Positions 10,704-64,000 of a DNA stretch of 64,000 bases are shown piece after piece. The stretch comes from Hyperoplus lanceolatus (Eukaryota; Chordata; Actinopteri; Uranoscopiformes; Ammodytidae). Under the pieces are notes generated by a model. The model was not told where the DNA came from. It did no database searches and saw only the letters and a list, made by a program, of their open reading frames with translations. How positions within the stretch are numbered: the first letter of the stretch is position 1; each line of letters starts with the position of its first letter. The position numbers were made by a program, and so were the translations under genes. Where the stretch lies: contig CM049397.1 in assembly GCA_026929865.2 (NCBI GenBank), positions 27,293,198-27,357,197 on the forward strand, written 5' to 3'.

Positions 10704-11108
10704 TTAAAGGGATAGTTCAGCATTTTTAAAGTGGGGTTGTATGACGTACTTAGGCATAGTTATGGTGTTACCTTATGAAGATAGCAATCAGTGCAGTCAT
10801 TAAAAGGAGTATGGGAGAGACCTAGCTGTTTCGGCGGAAAACTAAAGCTGTGGAAAAAAATTCAAGTTCAGCATAAAATTGAACAGATATTTAGGTATAA
10901 GGTTAGCATTTATATATGTGGAGAAAAAAAAACGTTTTTCTTCTGGTCACCTCTGCAACAGTACAAGGCTGACTTCTGCTACAGCAAAGTCTCCCCCAAA
11001 CTCCTTATAGTGACTGCACTGTACACAATCTCCATAAGGTGACACACTAACTATGCCTAAGTACGTCATACAACCCCACTTTAAAAACATACTGAACAAT
11101 CCCTTTAA
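10704..11108. mobile_element. MITE with TTAA ends and long inverted repeats
   Basis: A 405-bp non-autonomous DNA element. The left end starts TTAAAGGGATAGTTCAG and the right end is its imperfect reverse complement, CTGAACAATCCCTTTAA. The inverted homology extends inward through GTGGGGTTGTATGACGTAC, TTAGGCATAGTTA and CACCTTATG, so each arm is well over 100 bp. The TTAA at both outer edges (10704-10707, 11105-11108) fits a TTAA target duplication, suggesting piggyBac-type mobilisation; this is inference because TTAA could also be part of the terminal repeat. The 83-aa ORF inside is not a transposase. Confidence 0.85.
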
Positions 11109-18985: not shown

Positions 18986-19817
18986 AATATCCAATCTTTA
19001 GTCGCAGACGACAGACAAGATTTTTTATGTGAAATGTAAAAGAGAGTTTTTCATCTATCCAGATGCCAAGATATTTATATTCAGTGACTCTTTCAATATG
19101 AGATCCATTATTTGTGTGAATAATAAGATCATTAAAATGTGTAATTCTTGCTCTGGAAAAACACATATTTTTTTTTCTGTATTAAGGACAAGCCTGAGAT
19201 CCACTAGACAGTTCTGCAGGGTGTTAAAAGAGCTCTGTAGGTTCTGAACAGATTGTTGCACTGAATCAGAAATGCAATACAGTACAGTGTCGTCCGCAAA
19301 CAAATGGGCATGACAGTTTTGTAGTGATGAAACAATATTATTGATGTAAATTGTGAATAGGACTGGACCTAAAATTGAGCCCTGCGGAACACCATTTGTA
19401 ACTGTTAAAAACTCAGTTTGGTAGCTTCCCAGTTTTACTGACTGCTGTCTATCAGAGAGATAGTCCCTAAACCAGCTACATGTAGAATAATCAAAACCAA
19501 TTTCATGCAGCCTCTCTAAAAGCAAATGATGATCTAAAGTATCAAAAGCTTTTGACAGATCAACAAAAAGTGCTGCACAGTGCATTTTTTTTATCGATAG
19601 CTGTAACAATGTTGTCTAAGACCAAAGTGACAGCAGATACGGTACTGTGGCTTGCCCTAAAACCAGATTGAAATGGACTCAAAATGGAAGCACTGGATAA
19701 AAAGGTTTTCAACTGAGTATTAATGACTGATTCTAGAATTTTGGCATGGGAGTTTGGAAATTGGCCTGTAATTATTGAGATCACTTTTGTCACCCCCTTT
19801 ATGTAATGGAATGACAT
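18985..19817 (-). pseudogene. LINE reverse-transcriptase remnant, frameshifted
   Basis: Encodes the RT palm with VDLSKAFDTLDHH, the GVPQGSILGP box and the catalytic HLFADDTVLY box, then EYKYLGIWIDEKLSF. At least two frameshifts are visible: one between AKILES and the upstream YRP-like block near 19750, and one in the A-run near 19590. A further frame change lies between the RT palm block and the CFSRARITHFNDL block near 19160. The frame then enters the foreign insert at about 18985. Confidence 0.85.
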
Positions 19818-34720: not shown

Positions 34721-35161
34721 CTTTTTGACAAATACTTAATAAAGACAAATAAACAAGAACTAACAAGACAAGAACATATTGAGGCTAATGGTTGAAAGGA
34801 GTTCAACCTCATTGCCATATCCAATACTGATCTTGAAGTGAATATTGTGTTGTATAAGTGTTACAAGCGAGTGTTCAGGCCAGGGACATTATTATCAGGA
34901 AATAAGACACAATGCTCCATTCTTCATTAGATCATAACTATGTAAATGTATTCCCTCATATATCTTACCTTTGTGTAAATGCTACATAGAATAATTAAAT
35001 CCCAACCTCTTTTCCAGTGTAAATAATGTCTCACCTCAATAAGAGAAGGTTTTGAGAAAAGTTTATTCTTCTAAACTTTTCTGTACTGAATGGGAGTCGA
35101 GGTTGGATAATGGTTTCCACCAAAGCTTAAAGAATTGGTGCCTCCGAGTATACAGTATGTA
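34721..35161. other. Non-coding flank of the Tc1 element
   Basis: AT-rich unique sequence ending at the TA target site (35160-35161) of the Tc1 insertion. Confidence 0.5.
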
Positions 35162-35441
35162 CACTCAACAAAAATATAAACGCAACACTTTTGTTTTTGC
35201 TCCCATTTTTCATGAGATGGACTTAAAGATCTAAAGTTCATTCCAGATACACAATATTACCATTTCTCTCAAACATTGTTCACAAATCTGTCTAAATGTG
35301 TGATAGTGAGCACTTCTGCTTTGCTGAGATAATCCATCCCACCTCACAGGTGTGCCACATCAAGATGCTGATCTGACATCATGATTAGTGCACAGGTGTG
35401 CCTTAGACTGTCCACAATAAAAGGCCACCCTGAAATGTGCA
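35162..35441 (+). repeat. Left 280-bp terminal inverted repeat of Tc1
   Basis: Begins CACTCAACAAAAATATAAAC and ends GAAATGTGCA. It pairs with 36507-36786 with about three mismatches (near 35236, 35336 and 35429). At 280 bp it is at the long end for Tc1 elements. The transposase ORF starts just inside it. Confidence 0.93.
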
Positions 35442-35444
35442 GTT

Positions 35445-36467
35445 TTGTCTCACAGCAAAATGCCACAGATGCCACAAGCATTGAGGGAGCGTGCAATTGG
35501 CATGCTGACAGCAGGAATGTCAACCAGATCTGTTACTCGTGCATTGAATGTTCATTTCTCCACCATAAGCCGTCTCCAAAGGCGTTTCAGAGAATATGGC
35601 AGTACATCCAACCGGCCTCACAACCGCAGACCACGTGTAACCACACCAGCCCAGGACCTCCACATCCAGCACCTCCAAGATTGTTTGAGACCAGCCACTG
35701 AGACAGCTGCTGAAACAATTGGTTTGCATAACCAAACAATTTCTGCACAAACTGTCAGAAACCGTCTCAGGGAAGCTCAACTGTATGCTCGGCGTCCTCA
35801 TCGGCGTCTTGACCTGACTCCAGCTCATCGCTGTAACAGACTTGAGTGGGAAAATGCTCACATTCGATGGCGTCTGGCACGTTGGAGAGGTGTTCTCTTC
35901 ACGGATGAATCTCGGTTTACATTGTTCAGGGCAGATGGCAGACAGCGTGTGTGGCATTGTGTGGGTGAGCGCTTTGCTGATGTCAATGTTGTGGATCGAG
36001 TGGCCCATGGTGGTGGTGGGGTTATGGTATGGGCAGGCATCTGTTATGGACGAAGAACACAGGTGCATTTTATTGATGGCATTTTGAATGCACAGAGATA
36101 CTGTGATGAGATCCTGAGGCCCATTGTTGTGCCATACATCCATGAACATCACCTCACGTTTCAGCAAGATAATGCACGGCCCCATGTTGCAAGGATCTGT
36201 ACACAATTCTTGGAAGCTGAAAATGTCCCAGTTCTTGCATGGCCAGCATACTCACCGGACATGTCACCCATTGAGCATGTTTGGGATGTGCTTGACCGGC
36301 GTATACGACAGCGTGCACCACTTCCCACTAATATCCAGCAACTTCGCACAGCCATTGAAGAGGAGTGGAACAACATTCCACAGGCCACAATTGACAATCT
36401 GATAAACTCTATGCAAAGAAGATGTGTTGCACTGCATGAGGCAAATGGTGGTCACACCAGATACTGA
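35445..36467 (+). CDS. Tc1-type DD34E transposase, intact
   Basis: A 340-residue transposase that would cut and reinsert its own element at TA sites in the nucleus. Residues 10-55 form the first DNA-binding helix-turn-helix (ALRERAIGML, STRSVTRAL, STISRLQRRF). A second paired-like helical domain covers about 60-125, ending in an RRPHRRLDLTPAHR basic stretch. The catalytic triad is complete: D154 in LFTDESRF, D242 in FQQDNARPH and E277 in SPIEHVWD, with exactly 34 residues between the last two. The GGGGVMVWAG glycine box (189-198) is present. Translation may start at Met6 (35460, MPQMPQ) rather than Met1. Length matches full Tc1 transposases and there is no stop or frameshift, so it may be functional. 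The 228-aa minus frame beneath it is a shadow. Confidence 0.97.
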   Translation: MSHSKMPQMPQALRERAIGMLTAGMSTRSVTRALNVHFSTISRLQRRFREYGSTSNRPHNRRPRVTTPAQDLHIQHLQDCLRPATETAAETIGLHNQTISAQTVRNRLREAQLYARRPHRRLDLTPAHRCNRLEWENAHIRWRLARWRGVLFTDESRFTLFRADGRQRVWHCVGERFADVNVVDRVAHGGGGVMVWAGICYGRRTQVHFIDGILNAQRYCDEILRPIVVPYIHEHHLTFQQDNARPHVARICTQFLEAENVPVLAWPAYSPDMSPIEHVWDVLDRRIRQRAPLPTNIQQLRTAIEEEWNNIPQATIDNLINSMQRRCVALHEANGGHTRY

Positions 36468-36506
36468 CTGGTTCTGAGTCCCCAGACCCCCAATAAAGCA
36501 AAAAAA

Positions 36507-36786
36507 TGCACATTTCAGAGTGGCCTTTTATTGTGGACAGTCTAAGGCACACCTGTGCACTAATCATGATGTCAGATCAGCATCTTGATGTGGCACACCT
36601 GTGAGGTGGGATAGATTATCTCAGCAAAGCAGAAGTGCTCACTATCACACATTTAGACAGATTTGTGAACAATGTTTGAGAGAAATGGTAATATTGTGTA
36701 TCTGGAATGAATTTTAGATCTTTAAGTCCATCTCATGAAAAATGGGAGCAAAAACAAAAGTGTTGCGTTTATATTTTTGTTGAGTG
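36507..36786 (-). repeat. Right 280-bp terminal inverted repeat of Tc1
   Basis: Reverse complement of the left arm. Its outermost base G precedes the TA duplication and is also the first base of the GTATGAAC duplication of the neighbouring hAT element. Confidence 0.93.
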
Positions 36787-37240
36787 TATGAACCAGCCGC
36801 GGCTGACCCATAGAGGGCGCTAGGGCGCCGCCCCCCCCCTCCTCCGCCCCAAAAAATAAAATAAAATAAAAAATATAAAAATCGTTTTTTTTTTGTTAAT
36901 TTGAGGCAACTAAACTATTTAATTCTATTTAAGAATGCACACTGAATTTATATTCTGGCACTGTATTTAAATTTCATGGCGAAATTCAAGCTCTAAACTG
37001 ACTAATTTGACTTCTGGGGCGCCAGTTCACGGCGCCCCAAACCCTCGTTCACTCAGAATGGCCCTATCAATTTCTATTGCCATTCAGTTTTAATGGGGGG
37101 TTTGGGGCGCTGGGCATTGGCGCCCGGTAACTGGTTACCTGGCAACAATAACAACAACGTTCGGATCTACTAACGGTTGCTGGCGGACTCGGAGTCGCGT
37201 GAGTTGTGTTGGCTAGGCTAGTTGTGTTGCAGCTGTCAAT

Positions 37241-40200
37241 ATGGACGAATTACCTCCTAATTCGGTTCAATCACTTTTAGAAACCCCTTTTGAGAGGAAA
37301 ACGTACGCGGAAAAAGTTAAAATAAAAGAACTTGGACCAGACCAGCCGGAGAACATCAACATTACACAGCTTGCCAAAGAGAAGCAGAAGTCTTACACCA
37401 GGAATTTCACACGGACTTGGTTTGGCAGAAAGGCTTGGCTAACTGGATGTGGATCTAAAAATGCGCTGTTTTGCTTTCCATGTCTACTATTCAAAACGTC
37501 TTCCTCTGATTCTGCCTGGACCGAAACTGGAGTAACAGACCTCAAGCATCTGTCTGAAAGGTTGAAGAAACATGAGCGATCCATGATTCACATGAACAAC
37601 TGTGTCAAACTAGCCGTGCTAGGCAAAATTAGCATCGCTACACAGCTGGACGAGGGTCATCGGATAGGGGTAAGACGACACAACGAAGAGGTTGACAAAA
37701 ATCGACACATTTTGTCAAAATTAATTGACTGCGTTAAATTTTGTGGTGCCTTTGAATTGGCTATGCGGGGGCACGATGTACGTGACGTATCGGTCAACCC
37801 CGGGATATTTCGGGGGTTAGTCGACCTGATGGCTTCCATTGACAGTGTGTTGGAGGAGCACTTGAAGAATGCCACAGTCTTCAAAGGTACGTCTAAAACA
37901 GTTCAAAACGAACTTTTAGACTGTATGCTGGCAGTGCTGCGAGAGCACATTTTGGAAGAAGTGAAGAACACCGAATATCTAGCCATCCAGGCCGACGAGA
38001 CAACAGACATCTCCACACACTGTCAGCTTGTGCTTGTGCTACGATATATTGACGGCCACAACAACATCCAGGAGCGCTTTTTTTAGTTCATCAAGCTAGA
38101 AGGTGCGCCCGCAGACACAATCGCCACAGCATTATTGCAAAGACTGCGCACTATCCTCCCTGAAGGGCAAGAAGGGAAGCTCATTGCCCAAGCTTATGAT
38201 GGCGCATCTGTGATGCGCGGAGCGACAGGTGGGGTACAGAGAAAAGTCCAAGACGTCTACCAGAATGCATACTACATACACTGTTATGCGCACCAACTCA
38301 ATCTCGTTATGCAGAAGGCGACATCCCACATCCCGAAGATCAGACACTTCGTCTCCGATCTCGGGGGCTTCTCTACATTTTTCTCTAATTCATACAAGAG
38401 AACAGCAGTGCTTGACGAGGTGGTTGCGCACCGTCTTCCCAGAGCTTCACCAACGCGGTGGAACTTTCATAGTCGCGCTGTCAACACCGTGTATGAGCAC
38501 AAGGATAACCTGGTAGCATGTTTCGAAACCATCCGGAACCGAGGAGGTGACTCCAATTCGGAGAGAGAGGCCGGGGGCTGTTTGAGAATTTTGGAAGAGC
38601 CAAGCTTTTGTTTTTTTCTGGCGCTTTTCCACAAGATCATGCTCCAAGTCCAGATGCTCTTCAACCAGCTGCAGAAACGAAACATAGACTCGGTGTACAT
38701 CGCAACACTCACCCAGCGGTTCACCACCAGCATACAGGCTGTCAGGTAGGCTATGTGATTTTGTACATTGGTTTAAACAGTTATGCTTATATAGGCCTAT
38801 CAATATCTCATAGTAGACTACACTTGTTTATATGTCAATTTAGCTAACCTCTGTATCTAATATACAACATAGTAACAGTAATTTCAACATTTAGTATGGA
38901 TGTCATATCTGGTTGTTAAAACAGTAATTGCGGGCGGTTGTAGTAATGCATTGTACTTTTGTCTTGGATTAGGGACATGGTCCCAGCTCTAGAAGAGGAT
39001 ACGGAGTACAGAGGACCTGTACATGAGCCAGCCCCAAAGAGAGGCAGACCACTGGGAGAAGACACACAACAGCAGTTGGCTATAAAGGTAGGCCTAGCTG
39101 TAACAGAGATTATACTGTATTTGTGTATATTGTGTTTGTCTTCAAAATGAGGTGAAATAAGGAAACACTGTAACAACTTTCCTGAATTAGCTCTTCAGAA
39201 TAGTGTTGTAGCAAAAAAACAATAATGTATTTTTAGATAAACATGGGAATAAACAAAAATATATTTTAATTATTTTTGGTAAAATATGTTTTGTTTATTC
39301 CCATGTTTATCTAAAAATACATTATTATTTATAATGGCATCCCATTATACCTGAAGAGGGCGGAGAAATCGATAACAGATAATCATAGAGTGCAAAGTCT
39401 GTTTTTGTATTTTGAAGCATTTTTGACTTATTTACTGCATTAAGCATTTCTAAACATTTTACTGCAACACATATTTATAACCATTACATCAGCAGCTTTT
39501 GTGTATTCAGAATTGTCATATTACTGTACTCTGTCTACAGGAGAATGCAGAAATTATCTGTATTTTGTCACGTTCATGATATTAATAAATAATTAGAGTA
39601 GGTCGTATCTGCTCATCAGACATTTAACTGGTAGGAATTTGCATTGTTTAATTTTGAAGATGTTAACTTGATTGTAATGTTGGTGTACTGACTTTTTTTT
39701 TTAATCTTTTTTTCATAGGTATGTGACACCATCATCAGCCATGCCAAGGAGAGGTTCTCCTACACGAAGCATCTCGTCAGTGCCACTCTGTTGCAAGGCG
39801 AGCTGTTCCAACAACACAGCAAGAAGTTTCCAGATGCAGCACTGGAAACAACAGTGGAAGCCTATCCCAACCTGGACAAGGCCAAACTGAGAACAGAGCT
39901 GAGCCTCATCTACGAGAATGAGGAGTTTAAGGGTTGCAGCGGTGCAGTGGCTCTCTTTCAGGTTCTGATGGAGAACAACCTTCAAGACACCTTCACTGAA
40001 ACTGTAAGTCTACTTAGGATCCTCATCACCACACCGATGACCACATCCGAATCCGAGAGATGCTTCTCAACCCTCAAGAGAATAAAAACCTTCCTGAGGA
40101 ACACAATAGGACAAGAGCGCCTCAATGCTCTGGCTATGCTCTCCATGGAGAAAAGGCTTGTACGGGACATTCCGAATTTTAACACCAGGGTCATTGAAAG

Positions 40201-40246
40201 ATTTGCTGCTCAGAAAGACAGGCGTGTTAAGTTCATGTACAAGTAA
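37241..40246 (+). pseudogene. hAT transposase (TTF/DUF4371 type), one in-frame stop
   Basis: Three exons can be read: 37241-38745, 38973-39087 and 39719-40246, joined by GT-AG introns (CTGTCAG/GTAGGC, TTGGATTAG/GGACATGG, ATAAAG/GTAGGC, TTTTTTCATAG/GTATG) with phases that fit. They give 715 codons in one frame, except codon 282, which is TAG at 38084-38086 (ERFF-stop-FIKLEG). The N-terminus (about 55-110) carries a TTF-type zinc finger (WFGRKAWLTGC, FCFPCLLF). A DUF4371-like segment follows (KFCGAFELAMRGHD, NPGIFRGLVDL). The first catalytic Asp is D252 in QADETTDIS. Downstream are AQAYDGASVMRG and HCYAHQLNLV. The C-terminus has the hAT dimerisation block (SESERCFSTLKRIKTFLRN, RLNALAMLSME). It resembles proteins often annotated as ZMYM1-like in fish. 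The copy is dead unless the stop is read through, and was inactivated recently. Confidence 0.92.
39221..39326. repeat. Perfect 35-bp inverted repeat in hAT intron 2
   Basis: The left arm 39221-39255 (starting AATAATGTATTTTTAG) and the right arm 39292-39326 are exact reverse complements, separated by a 36-nt AT-rich loop that is itself partly palindromic. It would form a strong hairpin in RNA or cruciform DNA. It may be a small MITE nested in the intron or part of the hAT; no clear target duplication was found. Confidence 0.9.
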
Positions 40247-40271
40247 GAACTCTCCATCCCCAGCCATTCAC

Positions 40272-40504
40272 TGTATATAGTTCTCTGCAAACATATGTTG
40301 GCATCATGCCTTATTGTATATAGTTATATGCAAACCTATGTTTGCATCATGCCTTTAGTGTGCATATTGTATATAGTTCTATGCAAACCTATGTTTGCAT
40401 CATGCCTTTAGTGTGCATATTGTATATAGTTCTATGCAAACCTAGGTTTGCATCATGCCTTTAGTGTGCATATTGTATATAGTTCTATGCAAACCTATGT
40501 TTTT
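40272..40504 (+). repeat. 53-bp minisatellite in hAT 3' region
   Basis: A 53-bp unit beginning TGTATATAGTTCTATGCAAA and ending TTTAGTGTGCATAT occurs as a 43-bp first partial copy (40272-40314), three full copies (40315-40367, 40368-40420, 40421-40473) and a partial copy (40474-40504). The full copies differ at only a few positions. The array lies between the transposase stop and the AATAAA, so it would be in the 3' UTR. Confidence 0.92.
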
Positions 40505-40821
40505 GTATAATTCCCAATTGTTATTGATGTATTTGCACTTTTAATATTGCTGAATTCTACAAGGCAAATAAATTAAGTTAAAACCTAGTTCACCTGCCCC
40601 ATTTGTCTTTGTAAGGAAATGTTCTATTTTGTCTTTATTATTTTGTCAGAATGCACCAGAATGCTTCGTTTGTATGTGAAAATCACAAAAAAAATCTTCT
40701 GGGGGTTGATCCCCCCAGACCCCCCTACAGGGGTTTGGTTTATAAACTTTCAGCCCCACCTAAAAGAAAATTCACCAGCCGCCACTGGTATGAACTATGC
40801 TGCTTAATCAGACCTAAAAAG

Positions 40822-58857: not shown

Positions 58858-61800
58858 TTAAGACGAGGATCCCTGTTCATCACTTGAGTGGGAATTCTTA
58901 TGTTTGTGGAGTTTTAACCAGGTGGAGAACGCCTCTCCACACGTAGGGCATTTGTAAGGCTTCTCCCCAGTGTGTAACCTTGTGTGTTCTTTCAGGTCTG
59001 ATAAATGACCAAATGCCTTCTCGCAGGTAGTGCACTTATATGGCTTTTCACCTGTGTGTGTTCTGATGTGCCTTTTCAAAGTGGTACCCGTGGCGAAGCG
59101 TTTCTTGCAATGGGTGCACTTGAAGGGCTTTTCCCCCGTGTGCACCCGCAGGTGAATCTTGTACGCCGAAGAATCTGCAAACTCCTTCCCGCACTCTTTG
59201 CAGGTGTACGGCTTCTCGCCCGAGTGAACTCTCATGTGCTTCTTCCTGTTCATATCCGAGCTGAAGCTTTTATCACAGACGCTGCATTTGAACGGCTTCT
59301 CCCCGGTGTGAACCCTGGCGTGCAAGTCCAGGTTGTAACGCCGGTTGAATCCCTTCTTGCAAACCTTGCATTTGAAGGGCTTGACGGTGGAGTGAATTAT
59401 CATGTGTTTGTTCAAATCCCAACTCTCCCGGAACATTGTCCCGCAAGTGTCACATTTGAAAGTCTTTGCGACCGTGTGGGATTTCATATGGAATTTGTAG
59501 TTTTTGAAATTCGACATCACTTTACCGCACCGGTCACACTCGTAAGGGTTGGACTCGCCTTTGCTACTGCCACCTTTCCCATCTTTCTTATGCGCTGGTG
59601 GGGCAGTACCTTCAGTCGATGCTGTGCTCTCATCGTTACGGTTGTCACTTCGCCCACTACTTCTGGTAGAGTTTCTTTTGTCATCCTTATGTCTCTTTTT
59701 TGCTGTTGGGTCAGTTTCCTTTGAGGTGGAGCTCCCGTCCTTTTGTCTCTTTCGAGGTGGTGACTCTTTACCTCTTGCAGACGATGTGCCTCCGTCATTA
59801 TGATGCTTTTTGGGTGTTGACTCACTACTTGCAGCCAATGTTGTTTTCCCAGATTTAGATTTCTTATGTAGCTTCGGTTCACTTCTTTTAGCCGATCCTG
59901 TGTCGTCAGGGTTCCAATCACTATCCGATGTGGACTCAGGACTTCCAGGAGAAGTCGTTTTTCCGACACTGCGTTTCTTATTTGGTGCTGCTTTGGTGCT
60001 TGAAGATGAGGTCGCTTTCTCATCCCTGAGTTTTCTTCTACTTGCTGTTGGATCAGTACTTCTATATGACGTTTTCTTCTCGCTGTTGGATTTCTTTTTT
60101 GTCGTTGCCTCACTGTTTCCCGGAGACGTTGGGCTCTCATCATTAAATGCTTCATTTGGTTCTGGTTCAGGACTGTGAGCTGACGTTGTGTTGTCATCAT
60201 AATTTCTCTCATTGTCACTCAGCCCAGTACTTCTGGTCGATGCTTTATACCCATCGCTGTGTTTCTTACTTGTCATTGGCTCATGGCTTCCACTAGAAGT
60301 GGTTTTCCCAACACTGCGTTTCAAATTTGGTGCAGATTCACTACTTGAAGGTGAGGCTGCTGTTTCACCACTACTATTCTTATTTGGCATCGGATCAGTA
60401 CTTACAATTGAGGCTCTGGTCCCATTTTTACTTTTCTCACGTGCCGTTGTTTCAGTACTTGTAACTGATGCTGTCTTCTCATTGGTACTGCATTTCTTAT
60501 TCGGTGCTGCTTTAGAGCTTGAAGATGAGGTCTCCCTTTCATTACTGGGTGAATTTGCTGTTGCCTCACTGTTTCCTACCGATGTCGGGTTCTCGTATGG
60601 TTCTGGTTCAGGACTTTTAGTTGATGTTGTGTCTTCATCATTACGTTTCTCATTCTCCTTTAGCTCAGCACTACTAGTTGATCTCCCATCCTGGATTTCC
60701 TTATTTGGTATTTCCTGACTATTCCCTTTCGATGTTGGGTATTCATCAGTAAGCCCTGAGCCAGTAACTGATGTGGTGGCGTTACCTTGTGGAATTGGTT
60801 CAATTCTTACAGTAGCTGATGTTATGTTGTCATCATTGCTTTGCCTATTTGGTGTTGCTCCACTATTTGCTTTTGGTGTTGGCTTTGGTGTTAGCTTGAT
60901 GCCTTTCGCTGTGCTATCGTCACATTTATCATTCGGCGTCGGCTCAGCGCTTGTGTTCCCGTCGGTGCTTTTGTCATGTGATGTTTGCTCTGAGCTCTGA
61001 GCTGGTGCTGTGGTCTCGTCGTTGCTTTCCCGATTTGGCGTTGACTCAACATGTTTACTTCCTCGGGTACCGGTCAGGTGATCTTGGCTCTCGGCTTCAC
61101 AGGAGTTATCAGAGAGGAGCTGGGGGTCGGCGCTCTCTTTGTCAGATATATCTTGGTTGGAGAGGCTGGATTGTGGATCTTTATTTGCTTCACTCTGCGT
61201 TTGGTCAGTCTCCACAGGGCGAGACTGATCCCCGCGGGCACCTCCCTCACAACTTGCAGTCGTCGTCTTATCGGCGTCGGTGTTTTGTTGCTGTTCAGGC
61301 TGCTCCTGTTGTTTCTGACTGATGCACATTTCTTCATGTTCGTCCTTAATCTTTGAAGGATCTGGTAGGCCCGGACTGGAGCTCGTGTCGTCGTCACGGT
61401 GCTGCTGCTGCTGGAGGTTATATGCCTCTGTGAGCTCTAAAAGGAAGGACAAAGGAATGGGACAATGCGCTACATAAGCTGTATGATATTTAAAAGTTAA
61501 GAATGTCTATAATGAACAGTGCCAGTTGGAAAAACAGCAGTAACCTTGAACTGAAAACAAAGTGGATTGGTGCATCTCTAGGAGCAATAACCCAATGCCA
61601 AAATCCCACAAATATAGTAAATAAGTAAATAAGAAAAAATGTAAAAGTTCTGTAAGAATGTTGTATTCATTCTTTTTACCCGAAAGACTATCTCATTGGA
61701 TTTCCATAAAGGAGGTTTGTATTTGAGTACTAACAACACAAATATACCTTAAACATGGGGAATACTATTGTCTCAATCTAAACCGTTAACTAGTCTTATA

Positions 61801-63500: not shown

Positions 63501-63843
63501 TAACTTGTAGCCTACAGAAGTATTCACAGCCTCTGCTCAATGCTTTGTTGTGGCACCTTTACAGCCCGGAGTCTTTGGGAATATGAAGCCACAAGCAAGA
63601 CACACCTATCTTTGGCCAGTTTCGGACATTCTTCTTGATGGCGAGTGTCGGTGCAAAGCTATTTTCAGATCCCTCCAGAGATGTTCAATGGGATTCAAGT
63701 CTGGGCTCTGGCTGGGCCACACTAGGACATTTACGGAGTTGTTCTGAAGCCACAACTCCTTCGATATCTTGGCTTTGTGCTTAGGGTCATTGTCCTGTTG
63801 AAAGATGAACCGTCGCCCAAGTCTGAGGTTGTGCTCTGCTGAC
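63318..63843 (-). mobile_element. Tc1-like element, decayed 3' half
   Basis: The outer end ACAGTGCATACGGAAGTATT (starting about 63320), then TTTTTCCACATTTCGTTATT and AATACCCCATAATGACAA, are the terminal-repeat words of a widespread fish Tc1 family unrelated to the element at 35162. A 27-base A-run (63474-63500) sits where those elements carry an A/T-rich stretch. Confidence 0.85.
63555..63825 (-). pseudogene. Tc1-like transposase C-terminal remnant
   Basis: Read on the minus strand it gives FIFQQDNDPKHKAK, then VNVLVWPSQSPDLNPIEHLW, the second Asp and the Glu of a Tc1 DDE domain. The spacing is one residue longer than the usual 34 because of one extra codon in SKELWLQ. Downstream of RDLKIALHRHSP the frame decays. 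The first half of the gene is absent at the break near 63843. It is a dead fragment. Confidence 0.8.
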
Positions 63844-64000
63844 AGACTAAATGATTAATCTACTGAATGCTCCATTGGATTTCAATAGTAATTAAATCTA
63901 TTTTGCACAATGCACATAAAGCCTTTTAGTTAAAATATTTTAAGTTTCTCTAACTACTTATATGACACATTGGACAACTGATAGTTTGACCATTGTAGCG
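63844..64000. other. Right edge, nothing recognised
   Basis: AT-rich unique sequence after the abrupt end of the Tc1-like fragment. Confidence 0.5.

Follow-up and report, generated by a model that had tools for sequence, protein, structure and literature searches.

The window analysed here is a stretch of 64,000 nucleotides from Hyperoplus lanceolatus (assembly GCA_026929865.2, contig CM049397.1, positions 27,293,198 to 27,357,197 of the forward strand). It contains a Tc1/DD34E transposable element, which is real and fairly young, with a hAT-type element adjoining it on the right. The features of the two elements are as follows.

35160..35161, no strand: left TA target-site duplication
35162-36786: full-length Tc1 element, 1625 bp long and bordered by TA at each end, with a DD34E frame
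35162..35446, + strand: left arm, a terminal inverted repeat of 285 bp, starting CACT
35460..36467, + strand: DD34E transposase frame of 335 codons plus stop, with D149, D237 and E272
35665..35675, + strand: region of a 6-bp in-frame deletion (two codons absent), from comparison with sister copies
36502..36786, - strand: right arm, a terminal inverted repeat of 285 bp, ending AGTG
36787..36788, no strand: right TA target-site duplication
36794..40787, + strand: hAT-type element, with Pfam DUF4371 and Dimer_Tnp_hAT in its open pieces
40788-40795: 8-bp target duplication GTATGAAC of the hAT element, the left copy being split by Tc1 (35159-35161 and 36789-36793)

The arms differ at 4 of 285 positions (98.6% identity), namely arm positions 75, 174, 268 and 281. 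An earlier reading made without database searches (the sequence-only reading) had given arms about 99% identical with about three mismatches in 280 bp, which is correct, since three of the four lie inside the first 280; the clean TA duplications that it described are also there, at 35160-35161 and 36787-36788. Its 340-codon DD34E frame is indeed open and DD34E, but is 335 codons long when started at the first ATG (35460), and 340 only if counted from a TTG at 35445. The catalytic triad is D149, D237 and E272, with 34 residues separating the last two. Matches to HTH_23/HTH_28, HTH_Tnp_Tc3_2 (5.5e-10) and DDE_3 (1.4e-15) represent the two helix-turn-helix domains and the DDE domain of a Tc1-type transposase of about 340 residues; together with the TA duplication, the DD34E triad and the terminal inverted repeats, they place the element in the DD34E (Tc1) group of Tc1/mariner. 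The arms do not show the organization typical of Sleeping Beauty (SB), in which each long arm has an outer and an inner transposase-binding repeat: the outer 30-35 bp found no match in the rest of the arm on the same strand better than in shuffles (P 0.60-0.69), in a comparison that a degenerate inner copy could escape. Single-strand folding of one arm gave nothing notable (z -1.2).

The left copy of the hAT target duplication is split by Tc1 after its first G. It is likely that the hAT element inserted first, and that Tc1 then entered the TA of the hAT duplication. Since the Tc1 end is G, the final letters are the same in either order. A G at 35159 is required by the hAT-first order alone, and a G is there, so that this order is favoured by an estimated 4-5 to 1 from base frequency, a figure that depends on one base. 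The hAT element (36794-40787) is nearly complete, with intron-like gaps between the open pieces and an in-frame stop at 38084-38086, and in the 3′ part a 53-bp unit is repeated in tandem (40312-40502). Elsewhere in the window, a second Tc1-like transposase fragment lies on the minus strand at 63609-63854 (DDE_3, 2.1e-10), and is 42% identical to the window transposase over 38 residues. A single open stretch of 882 codons at 58861-61506 on the minus strand, with seven C2H2 zinc-finger matches, is probably a host gene exon, and a reverse-transcriptase fragment at 19058-19615 on the same strand (RVT_1, 7.8e-25) is probably part of a decayed LINE-type element. The inverted repeat of 107 bp at 10723-10829 and 10981-11087 (86% complementary, 151 bp apart) is possibly a small non-autonomous element.

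The family was searched for in the window's own genome (527 contigs, 806.7 Mb), in which the window lies on C3. Copies were counted using a 49-base pattern from the arm end, allowing up to 2 mismatches, on both strands, which gave 3610 forward and 3581 reverse matches, and none for a reversed control pattern. As there are two arm ends per full element, these counts mean some thousands of copies, fragments included. Two sets of copies were then compared. The near-sister set came from the best 40 matches, scored out of 1353 first-look candidates, and one of the 40 was the window copy itself; 39 were fetched, and 37 with both ends present were used (L025 and L033 were excluded because their left ends are unclear). 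Most rows of this search started at query base 65, suggesting a different left end in the sisters, but this is a search artefact, and the fetched DNA of the 37 copies has left ends. The systematic sample consisted of the 76 loci behind 100 listed places on contig C1, between 59 kb and 15.1 Mb, where the arm end is matched exactly, with the exception of two copies already used. It was picked by one perfect arm end, so is tilted somewhat to young copies, but was not picked by likeness to the window copy. It contains 16 full-length copies (1585-1645 bp), 20 short copies (853-868 bp) and 40 others that fall outside the two classes (1585-1645 and 850-880 bp), namely fragments, single ends and other lengths, some of them nearly full (L074, L056). 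The majority sequences of the 16 systematic and the 37 near copies are identical over the compared bases. TA duplications are present on both sides of 36 of the 37 near sisters and 14 of the 16 systematic full-length copies. Around the TA, position -3 is A in 78% and position +4 is T in 75% of the insertion sites of 36 copies, including that in the window.

Comparison with the sisters alters the picture of the transposase. The sequence-only reading had found no lesion in it; set against the majority of the 37 sisters, its open frame has lost two codons to a 6-bp in-frame deletion and carries 12 missense changes, of which seven are losses of arginine at CpG codons. The copy therefore lacks the complete transposase, as in other members, that would be expected of an active autonomous Tc1. 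The absent residues are at majority positions 71-72, in the DNA-binding half, where the second helix-turn-helix begins. In the window protein the HTH_Tnp_Tc3_2 match begins only at profile position 27, compared with 4-11 in all four sister proteins scanned, and scores 39.8 bits against 42.1-45.2; the corresponding DDE_3 scores are 57.8 and 56.2-60.5 bits. None of the 37 full-length sisters has the 6-bp deletion. In L037, 3 bp are deleted in frame within that region and the frame is open, and two further sisters have frame-shifting indels nearby. The site may thus tolerate change, given the L037 frame and window Pfam scores barely below those of the sisters. A genome search with 40 bases across the deletion junction, allowing up to 3 mismatches, found one match, the window itself, and no second copy.

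In its total of substitutions the window copy is within the range of its near sisters. It has 16 relative to the majority of the 37 (sisters 6-17, median 13), made up of seven CpG transitions (sisters 0-5) and nine non-CpG changes, which is close to the sisters' median of 10. Intact frames are common: 24 of the 37 near sisters have open frames of 336-337 codons and 13 do not, while in the systematic sample 3 of the 16 full-length copies have such a frame from an ATG, the remaining 13 being broken or of changed length. Among the 37 aligned sisters, the closest to the window copy differs from it by 1.23%. When L010, the copy nearest the majority, was used as query, no near-identical copy was found among the best 40 of 108 candidates, where the highest other match reached 99%; this search listed full-length copies missing from the window search, neither being exhaustive, so that a closer sister could have escaped. 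The sequence-only reading took this copy as a candidate for a recently active element; that it is exceptional, recently active or a good candidate for current activity is not supported, in view of the thousands of arm ends, the intact frames in 24 of 37 near copies, the ordinary non-CpG count, the unshared deletion junction and the distance of 1.2% to the nearest aligned sister. What it had named as evidence against itself, many equally identical copies with fixed stops elsewhere, was found in part, as many similar copies with broken or altered frames in 13/37 near and 13/16 systematic ones. The count of copies and divergence that it had proposed was made in this one genome, and gave the arm ends above together with mean pairwise divergences of 1.5% for the 37 top copies and 2.4% for the 16 systematic ones, whose closest pair differs by 1.7%.

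No purifying selection on the transposase was seen, either in the 37 sisters pooled or in the window copy. The pooled sisters have 244 replacements, 44 silent changes and 14 stops, where 229.4, 58.9 and 13.6 are expected without selection, so that replacements are if anything slightly over expectation. In the window copy there are 12 replacements and 2 silent changes (expected 11.1 and 2.1). As 0.7 stops are expected by chance at its age, the stop-free frame is no evidence of kept function: at this age, luck would leave a frame open in about half of cases.

Within its family the window copy is one of the younger and better preserved members, without standing clearly apart from the rest. It diverges from the majority by 0.98%, and the 16 systematic full-length copies by 0.99-1.72%. 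Its non-CpG rate of 9/1549 is just under that of all 16 (L092 has 9/1525; mean 1.0%), and the probability of nine or fewer non-CpG changes under the mean of the systematic sample is about 0.057. Over the part shared with a short form of the element, described below, the non-CpG divergence of L092 is lower than that of the window copy. If substitution rates of 3e-9 to 1e-8 per site and year apply, the non-CpG divergence of 0.58% would correspond to an age of some 0.6 to 2 million years. The 38 copies form an almost star-like tree, with one of the 35 inner branches starred and 28 open, and the end branch of the window copy is 0.0087 against a median of 0.0063. The starred pair, L012 and L046 (C17, 25.77 and 25.73 Mb), have the same flanks and lie 37 kb apart, and represent a segmental duplication rather than two insertions.

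The arms are a weak clock, because their near identity is partly a property of the family. The arms of the family majority already differ at positions 268 and 281, and hence only two of the four mismatches arose in the window copy. Four or fewer mismatches (gaps uncounted) are found in 12 of the 37 near copies and 3 of the 16 systematic ones, where the median is 6.5. The proposal in the sequence-only reading of a recent insertion stands in that the copy is rather young, at 0.98% from the family majority, but not in its use of the arms, whose likeness is partly inherited from a majority differing at 2/285.

The short form is an internally deleted derivative of 866 bp (for example L066, L078, L080, L109 and L110) that lacks 765 bp between breakpoints sharing TCCA. 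It is present in high copy, with 718 + 732 matches of its junction in the genome, and 13 of the 20 sampled short copies are exactly 866 bp. Among the copies L048-L123 and L009-L047, 15 of the 20 short ones have a two-base variant at arm positions 95-96 that is mirrored in both arms. In full-length copies the variant occurs in one arm only in 3/37 near and 3/16 systematic copies, and in both arms in 1/37. This distribution suggests exchange between arms or elements, and it is quite possible, if somewhat short of probable, that the 285-bp arms of the family are kept alike in this way. If this is true, arm identity would not serve to date the insertions of long-arm Tc1 elements.

Tipnon is a comparable non-autonomous element in the channel catfish, where the full-length partner is named Tip1. 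Tipnon has 32,000 copies and its partner family about 4000 (PMC4683633); likened by description alone, both cases are families of thousands with an abundant non-autonomous form. The 1450 junction matches of the short form in the window family do not amount to a demonstrated excess over the full-length one such as that of Tipnon.

Among solved structures, the closest by sequence is Sleeping Beauty SB100X (PDB 5cr4, E 1.7e-35). The element resembles Sleeping Beauty and SB-type salmonid Tc1 elements in its DD34E domain, paired helix-turn-helix half, TA target, long arms and length of about 1.6 kb, but differs from SB100X in that the protein is only 35% identical over the catalytic part, and from SB-type elements in showing no inner repeat of the outer arm sequence in the comparison above, which a degenerate one could escape. 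In Table 1 of PMC2198921, seven long-arm salmon families have CAGT ends and arms of 199-244 bp, while the CACT-ended DTSsa02 and DTSsa07 have short arms of about 40 and 20 bp; unlike the families in that table, the window element pairs CACT ends with arms of 285 bp. The same source describes salmon Tc1 families as short bursts from master copies, and the pattern of the window family matches this. Zebrafish ZB (Tc1-8B_DR) is likewise a native fish Tc1/DD34E element from a young burst, and is about 1.6 kb long, with 201-bp arms, 341 amino acids, copies >99% identical, 19/20 intact and activity shown (PMC7913693). By these figures ZB is younger, since window family copies differ by 1.5-2.4% on average and 13/16 systematic copies are broken or altered.

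Group 1 Tc1 elements (DTSsa1-like) of lampreys and teleosts are described in PMC3516227 as thousands of copies per genome, most a few percent from a common sequence. The window family is similar in having thousands of copies in one genome, mostly within a few percent of a common sequence. Judged by six published primers alone, the element does not appear to belong to Group 1, defined there by 92.5-100% identity: the best sites have 6-10 mismatches, no better than in shuffles. In all, 13 of the 14 Group 1 and Tas1/Tas2 primers published in PMC3516227 and PMC12441823 were compared with the element, and 12 matched no better than the best of 20 shuffles. The other, the Tas1 reverse primer (PMC12441823), has 12 mismatches in 30, with 13 for the best shuffle. 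No relatives were found in IMG/VR by protein, alignment or arm pattern, or in genome_contigs (a prokaryote collection) and phages, and plasmids gave no DNA match to the element. Plasmid proteins gave 133 matching records, each with <60% identity, which are too distant to be counted as relatives; of the 20 listed, 19 carry an IS630-family transposase annotation and the remaining one lacks any annotated feature. The arm sequence as text had a single match in the papers searched, unrelated by its title.

The sequence-only reading had considered a recent arrival, possibly by horizontal transfer, which for this copy is not supported. A star-like burst at about 1% divergence is the pattern expected of a recent arrival, and horizontal transfers have been published for other fish Tc1 families (PMC3516227). 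A recent transfer from another fish or a parasite that then seeded the burst is nevertheless rather doubtful, because reactivation within the lineage also yields a burst, and because 12 of the 13 Group 1 or Tas1/Tas2 primers match no better than shuffles and the thirteenth is one mismatch better. It is less probable still that the family is moving today, mainly as the 866-bp form driven in trans by intact full copies, with the window copy a later full-length insertion. Intact full-length frames do exist, the 1450 matches of one deletion junction are many, and the short copy L110 is 0.12% from its majority, but the closest short pair is 0.58% apart and the mean non-CpG divergence over the shared region is alike, at 0.94% for short copies (18/20 used, two being omitted as >10% diverged) and 1.07% for the 16 full-length ones.

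That the window copy is a recently, perhaps still, active autonomous element marked out by its intact frame and arms is highly improbable. Such an element would have the open DD34E frame, clean TA ends and four arm mismatches seen here, but intact frames are found in 24 of the 37 top-scoring sisters, and as few arm mismatches in 12 of the 37. The lowest non-CpG divergence rate when set against the 16 systematic copies (L092 having an equal count of nine) and Pfam scores near those of the sisters also fit activity. They have to be weighed against the loss of two codons, with a junction unmatched elsewhere in the genome, 12 missense changes in a neutral-like ratio, and 1.2% between this copy and the nearest of the aligned sisters.

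The window element is very probably one copy, on the young side and with a protein that is probably impaired, of a high-copy Tc1 burst that is finished or fading, and it looks like an ordinary copy rather than a specially active one. A near-star tree around one common sequence is what a burst from one source copy, or from a few, would leave once the copies had decayed independently. In this burst a transposase would have bound the arms, excised the element and inserted it into a TA, which was probably inside the target duplication of the older hAT element. After insertion the copy would have gathered its own substitutions and CpG decay and lost two codons where the second helix-turn-helix begins, changes that probably impair the protein. 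A loss of transposase activity is presumed, against which stand the open frame and the catalytic triad. The ends look complete, and transposase from another copy, if expressed, could move the window copy.

An open frame and near-identical arms alone therefore do not mark a Tc1 copy as active, and caution is needed, given that the deletion is visible only by comparison with sisters. For this genome, the burst, with its full-length and 866-bp copies about 1% diverged, can serve to mark one period of transposition.
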